From contig JADLEX010000097.1 in assembly GCA_020845895.1 (NCBI GenBank), positions 1 through 47,180 of the forward strand: a DNA stretch of 47,180 nt, read 5' to 3'. A program made the translations under genes and the position numbers. Below the pieces are notes generated by a model. It was not told the DNA's origin and made no database searches. It saw nothing but the letters and a program-made list of their open reading frames with translations. Source of the DNA: Deltaproteobacteria bacterium (GTDB lineage: Bacteria; Lernaellota; Lernaellaia; JACKCT01). Positions within the stretch are counted from its first letter, which is position 1. The number at the start of each line of letters is the position of its first letter. Positions 37,900-46,764 of this stretch are shown here, in pieces.

Positions 37900-37967
37900 C
37901 CCTCACCCCGGCTCGCTTCGCTCGCCACCCCTCTCCCGTCTGACGGGAGAGGGGCCGGGGGTGAGGG
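37900..37967. repeat. palindromic repeat R1 (intergenic form, 68 nt)
   Basis: An imperfect palindrome opening CCCTCACCCCGGCTCGCTTC, with the core CCCCTCTCCCGTC/GACGGGAGAGGGG, and ending GTGAGGG. It is nearly identical to R6 in the same orientation, and these two bracket the restriction-methylation gene. The left arm with GCTCGCTTCGCTCGC is absent from the four intragenic copies. Confidence 0.92.
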
Positions 37968-38044
37968 CGACTATTCTCCCCCCTTTTCATCGGTTCGCAT
38001 TTCGACCAATCTCATTCGACACGAAAACGCAGGACGGGTCCGAC

Positions 38045-42145
<4,101 letters not shown>

Positions 42146-42155
42146 CGGGGTGAGG

Positions 42156-42224
42156 CCCTCACCCCGGCTCGCTTCGCTCGCCTCCCCTCTCCCGTCATGA
42201 CGGGAGAGGGGCCGGAGGTGAGGG
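42156..42224. repeat. palindromic repeat R6 (intergenic form, 69 nt)
   Basis: The same form and orientation as R1, with about four differences. It fills the gap between the convergent stops of the MmeI-like gene and the MepA-like gene. The strong hairpin could also act as a transcription barrier there, although there is no T-run. Confidence 0.92.
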
Positions 42225-42228
42225 TCTA

Positions 42229-43468: not shown

Positions 43469-44596
43469 ATGGACATTGCCCGCCTCGCGGATTTTCCCGA
43501 CATTCCGGTCGACGTTTCGGCGCGCGTGGTCGTCAACCGCGGTCACCAGTTCCTCGTCTCGCAGGCGGCGCGGGTGAGTTCGGGCGGCATCTCGCTGGTC
43601 GTGCGCGAAACGCTGCCGCTCGGCGCGCTCGTCGACATCGAGTTCGCGATTGTGGACGAGCTGCACCCCTATCGCGGCGAGGCCCGCGTGAAGTCCTGCG
43701 AGCCGGGGGGCGCGAAGGGCGAGTACCAACTCGACCTCGAATTCACGCGCGTCACGCACAAAAGCCTGACGTTTCGCGAGACGCTCATCGACTGGAATCG
43801 CAAGCGACGCGTCGTCGTTCAGCTCGCCGTCGATGCGGCGCAGTACGTGCGCCATCAGGCCAGGGGCAACCGGCTCGACGACAAGGATTTCGGCCTGCGC
43901 GGCGCGGGGCATCGGCGGTCGGTGCTGCTGATTCACGGATTTCTGGGCACGCGCGGCGCGATGTTCCTGATGGAGCAGCACCTCAAGGCGAAGGGATTTC
44001 CCGTCTTTTCGATCACGCTCGGCTGGCTCAACGTCCACGACATCAACCGTTCAGCGCAGCAGATCGCCGAGCGCGTCGAAACGATCCGCCGCAGGTTCGA
44101 CCTCGACCGAATCAACATTCTCGGTCACTCGATGGGCGGTCTGATCGGCTTGCAGTACATCAAATGCTTCGGCGGCGCGGATCACGTGAACAAGCTCGTC
44201 ACCGTCGGCACGCCGTTCGGCGGAGCTCGGCTCGCGACGGCGGCAATGATCGCGATGCCGTGGTTCGGCCTGATCGCGCCGAGCACGCGCCAGATGCAGC
44301 CGCACAGCCAATTCCTGTCGCAATTGATCGCGCCGCCGCTGCCGGACGGCGTGCGCGTCGTCTGCCTCGCGGCGATGCACGACGCGGTGGTGCATCCGCG
44401 GGCGTGCGTGCTCGACGGCGCCCGCAACATCCTGATGGCGACGAATCACGCCGGGCTGGTCGTGTCGCCGCGCCTGTTCGCCATCGTGGAGCGGGAACTC
44501 GGCGGACCGACGGCATCGCCGGAGCGGCGACGCGCGGACCTGGCGATCGTTCGTGACGAAGAGGCTCAGGGCGCGGCGGTCGATCCCGCCATTTGA
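43469..44596 (+). CDS. PilZ-like domain fused to alpha/beta hydrolase (lipase-like)
   Basis: 375 residues. Residues ~12-100 form a beta-barrel pattern like PilZ (QAARVSSGGISLVV...GEYQLDLEFTRV). The c-di-GMP-binding RxxxR is absent and the [D/N]xSxxG motif is only partly kept, so ligand binding is doubtful. Residues ~150-345 are a lipase-like hydrolase with LLIHGFLGTRG, S221 in ILGHSMGGLIGLQY, D305 (AAMHDAVVHP) and H327 (ATNHAGLV), a complete predicted triad. There is no signal peptide. The stop lies 31 nt inside the 3' end of the convergent lipoprotein gene. Confidence 0.8.
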   Translation: MDIARLADFPDIPVDVSARVVVNRGHQFLVSQAARVSSGGISLVVRETLPLGALVDIEFAIVDELHPYRGEARVKSCEPGGAKGEYQLDLEFTRVTHKSLTFRETLIDWNRKRRVVVQLAVDAAQYVRHQARGNRLDDKDFGLRGAGHRRSVLLIHGFLGTRGAMFLMEQHLKAKGFPVFSITLGWLNVHDINRSAQQIAERVETIRRRFDLDRINILGHSMGGLIGLQYIKCFGGADHVNKLVTVGTPFGGARLATAAMIAMPWFGLIAPSTRQMQPHSQFLSQLIAPPLPDGVRVVCLAAMHDAVVHPRACVLDGARNILMATNHAGLVVSPRLFAIVERELGGPTASPERRRADLAIVRDEEAQGAAVDPAI

Positions 44597-46764
44597 AACG
44601 CGGCGAGCGACGCGGACCGGGCGTCGGCCCCGTAGCGCCGCTGTACGATTCGCTCCGCAGTCGTCACCGGCATCACCTGTGCCATCTTGAGCCGCGTCCC
44701 GTAAAACGAGAGCGTGAGAAGCTGCCCGCTCGCGCCGTCGTCGCCGAGAAACTCACCCAATGGAATGTCCACCGGTCCGAGCCCCGCGAGCCCCGCCACG
44801 CGCGAGCCGGCGAGCACGACTTCGGCCCCCGCGGCAAGCGACGCGCGCACGGCGTCGACGTCGGCCGCTTGCGGCAGAACGACGATGTGAATCCCCTCGG
44901 ATGTCGGCGGGACGGGGTTCGTTCCGATGGTCACCGGCAACCCCCGGACGAGATAGGCGGCCGATTCGCCGGTTTCGTCACCGTCGAGGAGCACTCTCCG
45001 GATGCCGGCGTCACCGATTCGCGCCCGCGCGCCGAGCGCCCGCAGTAGGAACGCATCGGAAGCTTCGCCCGCGTCCCAGAAGGCCGCGAGGTCGTATTTG
45101 CGGATCTGCGGCAGAATCGAATACACGGGACGCAGCCGCTGCGCGATGGGGTCCTCGGCCTCGGCGCCGGAGCCGGTGACGATGCGCGTGACGCGCACCG
45201 ACGCGGGGTCGAATCCTTCCGGCGCGCGCACGGTGCCGCCGATGGCGATGGTGCGGATCTGGTAGGGATCGAAGCGCGTGACCGGGGCGTCGGCGGCGAA
45301 CTCCGCCGGCACGAGCAGGGGGTAATTGGGGAAATAGGTCGAGACCGTCGGCGAGGATTTCGATGCGCAGAAGGCGACGTTGCTGACGAGCGGGTTGTCG
45401 CCGTTGACGGCGACGATCTCGAGTCGTCCGTCGAGGGCATCGACGGGCATGAGGCCGAGAATGGCGTGATCTGCGAGAATCGCCTCGGTGAGCTCCTCGG
45501 CGGTGTCGAAGGTCCGCAGTTCCGCGACCAGCGGAGCGTCGAGCTGCGCCGACAGGATGCGCGCGAGCGGACCGACCGAGCCGAGCACGATGGGGCCGGG
45601 CTCGCCGTTCAATTCCTTCCAGTCCCCGATCTTGCCCGCGAAGACGTCGCGCAGACGCTGCGTCGAAACGCGGTTCACGAGTTTCTGGTGCGAGCACGCG
45701 AGGGCGGGGATCAGCCGTGACGGCACGATCGGGTTGAAGTGCCACTCGGTCGGAACGCTCAGCACGAGCGAGGAAAACTCGATCGGCGGTCGTTCCTGAA
45801 ACGACTTTCCGATGACCTTGAGGAAGTTGCCGTAGTAGATCTTTTCGAGCAGGTCGTCGGACAGCGCGAGGCCGCCGAACTCGCGCGGTACCCACGCGCG
45901 CGCCTCGTCCATCAGGCGCATCCGGTTCGTTTCGCGCTCCAGAAACGCGCGATACGCCTTCTGCGTCTGCATCCCCCACACGCCGTGGCGATAGAGCCGG
46001 TGGTCGAACTGCAGGCCGCCCGCGAAGAGGATGCGGTCTTGCCAAAGCGTGAAGACTTCGGCCGCGGCGTCGCCCTGCTCCAGGATCTCGCCGAAACGCT
46101 GCTCGAACCCCGGTCCGCCGTCGCCGCCGATGGAAACGTACAGATTATTGTGCAGCTCCATCGCGGTTTGCACGAGCGCGAGGTCGCCGGGCATGCCCAG
46201 CAGCCCCGCGCCGATGACGCGCATCTCCGGGTGGTCGAAGAGCACCGCCGACAACTCGTCGAGGAATTCTCGCCCGGCGATATGCGCGAAGACCGGCACG
46301 CCGTACAGCTCGACGTACTGATACAGCCCTTCCATCTCCGGGGCGTCGAGCCGGCGCTCTCCGGTCTCGCCGCGCCGCCAAAGCGCCAGGCCCCGCGCGC
46401 CGCGCTGGTGCAGGGCCTTGAACGTTTCGAGCGGCGCGGGATCGTCGGACGCGATGGTGACAAAGGGGATGAGAATGCCTTTCGACTCCTCGAAGGCCTT
46501 GAGCACCAGTTCGTTGGGATCGGGGGTCGGGCCGGGGTCGGGGAAAGGGGCTTGGACCGCGGGCTCGCGGCTTCCGGCGATTAACGCTACGCCGGTCAGT
46601 CCCGCCTGCTGGATGGAGTATACCAGCTCGTCCGCCCGGTCCTCGCGCGTCAGGTATTCGTGGGCAGAGTAGACGGGTTTTTCGTCGTAGTACGCATCGC
46701 GGCAGCCGCTGGCCCCGGCGAGGGCCAACATCGCGAAAACAATTAGGAATTTTCGTCGCACCAT
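44566..46764 (-). CDS. large lipoprotein: degenerate amidohydrolase-like plus substrate-binding-like domains
   Basis: 732 residues, signal MVRRKFLIVFAMLALAGASGC (lipidated C21). Residues ~35-265 follow the amidohydrolase_2 TIM-barrel plan (QAGLTGVALIAGS, VPVFAHIAGREFL, HNNLYVSIGG, DRILFAGGLQFD). Most metal ligands are missing: the N-terminal HxH reads SAHEYL, and the HLGG and GTD motifs are altered. Residues ~330-460 resemble a PstS-type binding domain (STQRLRDVFAGKIGDWKELN). The last ~200 residues are unassigned. It probably faces the periplasm or cell surface. The ATG at 46764 gives the signal peptide; 12 upstream residues of the longer reading are not signal-like. Function unknown. Confidence 0.7.
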   Translation of the reverse strand: MVRRKFLIVFAMLALAGASGCRDAYYDEKPVYSAHEYLTREDRADELVYSIQQAGLTGVALIAGSREPAVQAPFPDPGPTPDPNELVLKAFEESKGILIPFVTIASDDPAPLETFKALHQRGARGLALWRRGETGERRLDAPEMEGLYQYVELYGVPVFAHIAGREFLDELSAVLFDHPEMRVIGAGLLGMPGDLALVQTAMELHNNLYVSIGGDGGPGFEQRFGEILEQGDAAAEVFTLWQDRILFAGGLQFDHRLYRHGVWGMQTQKAYRAFLERETNRMRLMDEARAWVPREFGGLALSDDLLEKIYYGNFLKVIGKSFQERPPIEFSSLVLSVPTEWHFNPIVPSRLIPALACSHQKLVNRVSTQRLRDVFAGKIGDWKELNGEPGPIVLGSVGPLARILSAQLDAPLVAELRTFDTAEELTEAILADHAILGLMPVDALDGRLEIVAVNGDNPLVSNVAFCASKSSPTVSTYFPNYPLLVPAEFAADAPVTRFDPYQIRTIAIGGTVRAPEGFDPASVRVTRIVTGSGAEAEDPIAQRLRPVYSILPQIRKYDLAAFWDAGEASDAFLLRALGARARIGDAGIRRVLLDGDETGESAAYLVRGLPVTIGTNPVPPTSEGIHIVVLPQAADVDAVRASLAAGAEVVLAGSRVAGLAGLGPVDIPLGEFLGDDGASGQLLTLSFYGTRLKMAQVMPVTTAERIVQRRYGADARSASLAAFQMAGSTAAP

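Follow-up and report, generated by a model that had tools for sequence, protein, structure and literature searches.

A predicted lipid-anchored protein of Lernaellota combining an eroded amidohydrolase barrel, one PstS-like lobe and a remnant of CapA

The window analysed here is a whole stretch of 47,180 nucleotides (contig JADLEX010000097.1 of assembly GCA_020845895.1) from a bacterium of the candidate phylum Lernaellota, and the subject of this report is the gene at 44566-46764 on its minus strand. This open reading frame is a real one and encodes a three-domain lipoprotein of 732 amino acids (P0001), which on sequence grounds very probably consists of a lipid-anchored amidohydrolase barrel, one lobe of PstS type and the remnant of a CapA domain. 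The gene is present as one copy in its own genome (G000). The original prediction had described a lipoprotein of unusual domain order, in which a metal-less amidohydrolase barrel was followed by a PstS-like domain and an unassigned C-terminus. In profile searches and profile comparisons, no single known family was found to span P0001 over its full length, which agrees with the unusual order. Its lipoprotein character was borne out as well, as the N-terminus MVRRKFLIVFAMLALAGASGC is a signal sequence (residues 1-21, 46702-46764 on the minus strand) with a lipobox-like end, LAGASGC, at Cys21. A cysteine behind a hydrophobic stretch is also found in the relatives L002, L004-L006 and L008.

Relatives were collected from seven genomes of the phylum (G000-G006, the first being that of the window), and the search for the same domain order returned seven copies with three-domain matches in six of them. 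The family of the window, f1, comprises P0001, L002 and L003, while family f3 groups the intermediate forms L004-L006. P0001 is orthologous nearly end to end to L002 of G001 (46% identity) and L003 of G002 (47-48%), and the nearly full-length matches in G004-G006 (L004-L006) share about 25% identity with it. In G003, only a standalone amidohydrolase lipoprotein of 345 amino acids with intact metal ligands was found (L007). The second copy of G002, L008, is 1099 amino acids long from its first ATG and carries Amidohydro_2 (78 bits), PBP_like_2 (17 bits, a weak match below cut-off) and PGA_cap (153 bits). Its first barrel has intact metal ligands and its C-terminus contains a second, eroded barrel-like region (97.4% to intact amidohydrolases, 0/6 ligands). 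The 1099-amino-acid gene lies at L010 6892-10191 on contig C3, with a broken CapA gene directly upstream.

A wider draw of 386 genomes, namely these seven and 379 of the same domain, gave 17 with a match at E<=1e-15. The three-domain gene was not found in the 379 other bacterial genomes, where the ten matches outside the phylum covered one part only (with no more than two candidates scored in each genome). In the same way, 198 genomes from the phylum of G007 gave no match at E<=1e-20, in a search that lacked its own positive control and scored up to five candidates per genome among those listed. A first scan of the genome contigs with P0001 alone gave no match. In plasmids, the PstS and CapA part of L008 retrieved 102 records, none covering 80% of the query, and the 30 of the 102 that are listed match mainly the CapA part. 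Finally, literature searches on combinations of amidohydrolase, CapA and PstS found no paper that, judging from titles and the opening lines of abstracts, deals with the fusion, although this does not prove that none has been published.

Amidohydro_2 is the sole Pfam match of P0001 (27 bits for a curated cut-off of 26.4, residues 84-313), and the barrel was assigned to residues 22-325 (45790-46701, minus strand). The barrel of family f1 is matched to intact amidohydrolases at 100% by hhalign (E 3e-40). Six alignment columns (HxH, K, H, H, D) represent the metal ligands, and P0001 has H35, Y37, A127, H161, G187 and G250 there, so that two of the six are kept (H35 and H161). The eroded relatives keep one of six (L002, L004, L005 and L006) or none of the four readable ones (L003), compared with six of six in seven intact relatives, five of which come from outside the phylum. 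The metal-less barrel of the original prediction thus stands. The kept residue varies by lineage and the eroded proteins do not agree on a ligand at any of the six positions, so that they would have no metal site in common. While P0001 shares barrel homology with the Amidohydro_2 family (PF04909; LigY, LigJ, 2-pyrone-4,6-dicarboxylate hydrolase, BB4693/3irs), it differs from this family by four replaced metal positions and two further fused domains. A tree of 14 barrel rows had long branches and no branching order was drawn from it.

The protein might still be an enzyme, with an active site rebuilt in the barrel or between the domains for a new chemistry. The fold regions are kept and N84, R124, E152, E170, R272 and E276 are invariant across seven aligned proteins, but at least some of these residues also occur in intact relatives and may be structural. 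Together with the lack of any conserved metal position, this makes a surviving enzyme quite improbable.

The barrel is followed by a PstS-like piece at about residues 352-455 (VSTQRLRDVFAGKIGDWKELNGEPG; 45400-45711, minus strand). TIGR02136 (PstS, NCBIfam) gives a weak match to P0001 (13.2 bits for a cut-off of 206.6, E 0.036, residues 361-394), and so do PstS chains in a sequence search of the PDB (E 0.04). Profiles were then compared with an alignment of eight PstS proteins, two of ten candidates (L095 and L096) having been dropped because antisense frames had been picked. Family f1 reached 57% (E 1e-4), f1 together with f3 94% (E 1e-7) and the set with L008 added 96% (E 1e-8), for 0.1-0.8% with unrelated profiles as negative controls. 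In parallel, a degenerate-pattern scan of the genome contigs matched two true PstS genes (L083 and L084) through this segment. Foldseek on a poor first structure model ranked PstS structures (1twy, 4gd5, 4exl) as well as Amidohydro_2 structures (3irs, 5vn5, 4i6k) among the top. The predicted local distance difference test score (pLDDT) was 49-81 over the PstS-like piece in ten-residue blocks.

Only about 127-241 of the 320 columns of the PstS alignment are matched, which corresponds to one lobe. This lobe of P0001 appears to be homologous to PstS, whereas the N-terminal lobe is absent, as is the RD-x-x-SGT phosphate-loop stretch that is present in L083 and L084. Nothing therefore suggests that P0001 binds phosphate. 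The claim of a PstS-like domain holds in part: a PstS-like piece does follow the barrel, but it is a single lobe that apparently arrived with the CapA domain. An ordinary ABC substrate-binding protein was dropped as a candidate, given the one lobe and the missing phosphate loop. The lipid anchor and the PstS-like lobe would also suit the surface receptor considered in the original prediction, which would capture a small molecule with its PstS-like and barrel parts and hand it over to a transporter or a signalling system. A single lobe deprived of its phosphate stretch argues against such a receptor, as do the gene neighbours in two relatives, which point to surface glycan acylation instead. 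Moreover, the neighbourhoods examined around eroded copies, which were incompletely annotated, showed no gene for a transporter or a sensor, and we consider the receptor improbable.

The C-terminus (residues 497-732, 44569-45276, minus strand) is recognisable through family f3. The reference was an alignment built from 14 intact CapA proteins of loci L047-L062, which omitted L055 (antisense frame only) as well as fragments, GT39 fusions and the gene of L008. The C-terminus of f1 matched that of f3 at 96.1% (E 3e-9) over 204 columns, the C-terminus of f3 matched intact CapA at 98.8% (E 1e-16) and both families together did so at 99.0% (E 7.5e-18). The Pfam domain PGA_cap has no match in P0001 and is over its cut-off in L005 (43.9 bits) as in L008. 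As judged from these profiles, the C-terminus of f1 shares descent with CapA by way of the f3 bridge, and what had been called unassigned is an eroded CapA remnant. The f1 copies are shortened in the middle, where they are devoid of a CapA block. The motifs GD, NxE, NNH, HW and H, which show little or no variation among the 14 intact proteins and are partly kept in L008 and L100, are absent from P0001 in an alignment read by eye. Between the PstS-like piece and this remnant lies the segment CASKSSPTVSTYFPNYPLLVP (residues 466-486, 45307-45369, minus strand), which is kept in six eroded proteins and unrecognisable in L008 and L100.

A clue to the origin of the protein comes from L100, an exported protein of 469 amino acids encoded in a genome outside the phylum, which contains a PstS-like piece and CapA without barrel. 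Six CapA-only matches were examined outside the phylum, and a PstS-like front part was seen in none of them but L100. L100 has the same order of PstS lobe and CapA (PGA_cap, PF09587) and detectable homology to P0001, which differs from CapA in being shortened, without a Pfam PGA_cap match, deprived of the motifs and fused to an amidohydrolase barrel in front. The existence of such a protein makes it likely that an exported amidohydrolase lipoprotein was fused with a 'long CapA', that is, a CapA with one PstS-like lobe in front (a 'long CapA' of Chloroflexi type is also known). The simplest history would then be this fusion followed by erosion, during which each of the three parts would have been stripped of the residues behind its known activity, with chain and lipid anchor retained. 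Within the phylum, the erosion can be traced through stepwise intermediates, from L008 with intact ligands through the half-eroded f3 to the eroded f1.

Gene position is in line with this history. In G004-G006 and on contig C23 of G002, the fused gene stands divergent beside dnaK, behind which dnaJ and a DegP-like gene follow, and in G003 the same place beside dnaK is occupied by the standalone amidohydrolase lipoprotein with intact ligands. This suggests positional descent, the barrel tree being too uncertain to prove it. It could also suggest that the lipoprotein is an accessory of a stress gene cluster of DnaK, DnaJ and DegP-like protein, the more so as the standalone form shares the position. 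However, the adjacency is divergent rather than operonic and it is absent in G000 and G001, which leaves a stress accessory very improbable. The six remaining genomes of the phylum contain two classes of dnaK, of which only the one of 63% identity was found in G000. The missing class is the one that neighbours the amidohydrolase lipoprotein elsewhere, and its absence may reflect an assembly gap.

In family f1, the gene is found in another context. In G001, the lipoprotein gene is followed by a gene for an SGNH-like protein of 392 amino acids and then by an MBOAT gene (87 bits), with overlapping frames, and the same order occurs in G002 after a gap of 24 nucleotides and then an overlap, the MBOAT frame being split. 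The SGNH label relies on a weak Pfam match below cut-off (13.7 bits) and on GDS and DxxH-like motifs seen by eye. O-acetylation systems of the AlgI/AlgJ/AlgX/AlgF type combine MBOAT and SGNH proteins with accessory proteins, and such pairs are known from the O-acetylation of exopolysaccharides (PMC4148444). A possible likeness to these systems is one of gene order, the lipoprotein gene preceding the SGNH-like and MBOAT genes in two of the three f1 genomes. It differs from them in G000, where the pair is not adjacent to the lipoprotein gene.

A further CapA remnant is tied to glycan machinery in the same phylum, since five proteins combine a PMT_2/GT39-like membrane part with an eroded CapA domain (Pfam scans covered three of them). 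They are 1125-1188 amino acids long (L074 2512-13286; L075 4795-8172; L076 2813-6328), and three of them stand in tandem in G004.

The best explanation of these data, held tentatively, would be that fusion and erosion were followed by service as a non-catalytic binding or scaffold lipoprotein of the envelope. In this function, the lipid-anchored protein may hold an anionic or carbohydrate ligand and, in family f1, it would probably serve a surface-glycan O-acylation system made of the SGNH-like and MBOAT proteins. Architecture, homology, loss of residues, stepwise intermediates and the operon-like order in two relatives can be read from the sequences, whereas the envelope location, the lack of activity, the ligand and the link to acylation are inferred. 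A role in binding a surface glycan or presenting it, in f1 perhaps to the pair of SGNH-like and MBOAT proteins, is thus possible but somewhat doubtful. A bolder version, in which three dead exported domains became a scaffold of Lernaellota that holds the nascent surface glycan for the pair in f1 and dead CapA domains would be general glycan-handling modules of the phylum, appears rather unlikely.

Several observations weigh against this explanation. The link to acylation covers two of the seven copies: in G000, the orthologues of both genes lie on contig C27 without the lipoprotein (the SGNH-like one at 50% identity), and the f3 gene by dnaK has no orthologous pair adjacent. The C-terminus of f1 taken alone is not recognised by the CapA alignment (2.5%). 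Both structure models are poor (mean pLDDT 45.4 for 732 amino acids with three sequences, 39.2 for 402 amino acids) and, while they weakly support the barrel and the PstS-like lobe, they are silent on the CapA part. Constraint is weakest in the CapA part of f3, which is poorly conserved (27-36% identity). This low conservation, the strongly shortened CapA of f1 and a reading frame that appears broken close to the N-terminus in the copy of G002:C23 could indicate that the fusion gene is merely decaying with little function left. On the contrary, six of the seven fused copies are open over their full length and that of G002:C23 from about residue 51, and f1 copies remain 46-48% identical across genera. 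Nonsynonymous divergence (dN, 0.36-0.85) was below synonymous divergence (dS, 1.00-1.54) throughout six pairs and three domains, although dS is near saturation and the constraint is therefore only rough. Decay of this kind is unlikely, and a non-catalytic scaffold is retained as the preferred explanation.

The convergent neighbour of the lipoprotein gene in the window encodes a PilZ and alpha/beta-hydrolase protein (43469-44596, plus strand) and overlaps its 3' end by 31 nucleotides. Such a gene is also found near the lipoprotein gene in G001 (L011 2049-3140). Further away in the window, a PglX-like DNA methyltransferase gene of 1394 amino acids (37961-42145, plus strand) has weak matches to PglX of BREX systems. 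It contains in-frame copies of a palindrome-containing repeat of 47-110 nucleotides, whose 47-nucleotide form occurs in six copies across 37922-42225, some of them just outside the frame. A DUF559 (Vsr-like) endonuclease domain lies between two copies, as though it had been brought along or inserted by the repeat. Elsewhere in G000, two CapA genes are convergent, tail to tail, on contig C27 (L078 3632-6193; about 63.6-66.2 kb), some 17 kb from the SGNH-MBOAT pair. According to PMC13248872, FEN-1099 is the lineage proposed as Candidatus Lernaellota or Podoxiota, and a metagenome-assembled genome of it carries the syntrophy-associated domains, CapA among them, which we do not connect with the lipoprotein gene.

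Within one candidate phylum, a series can thus be read from a fusion with intact ligands (L008) through the half-eroded f3 to f1, whose third domain is recognisable only through the intermediates. It would illustrate a route by which the fusion of domains and the loss of their activities can produce pseudo-enzyme scaffolds. It is also a warning that a C-terminus regarded as 'unassigned' can hold a known domain eroded past recognition, and it suggests that CapA-type domains may take part in glycan handling without catalysis.

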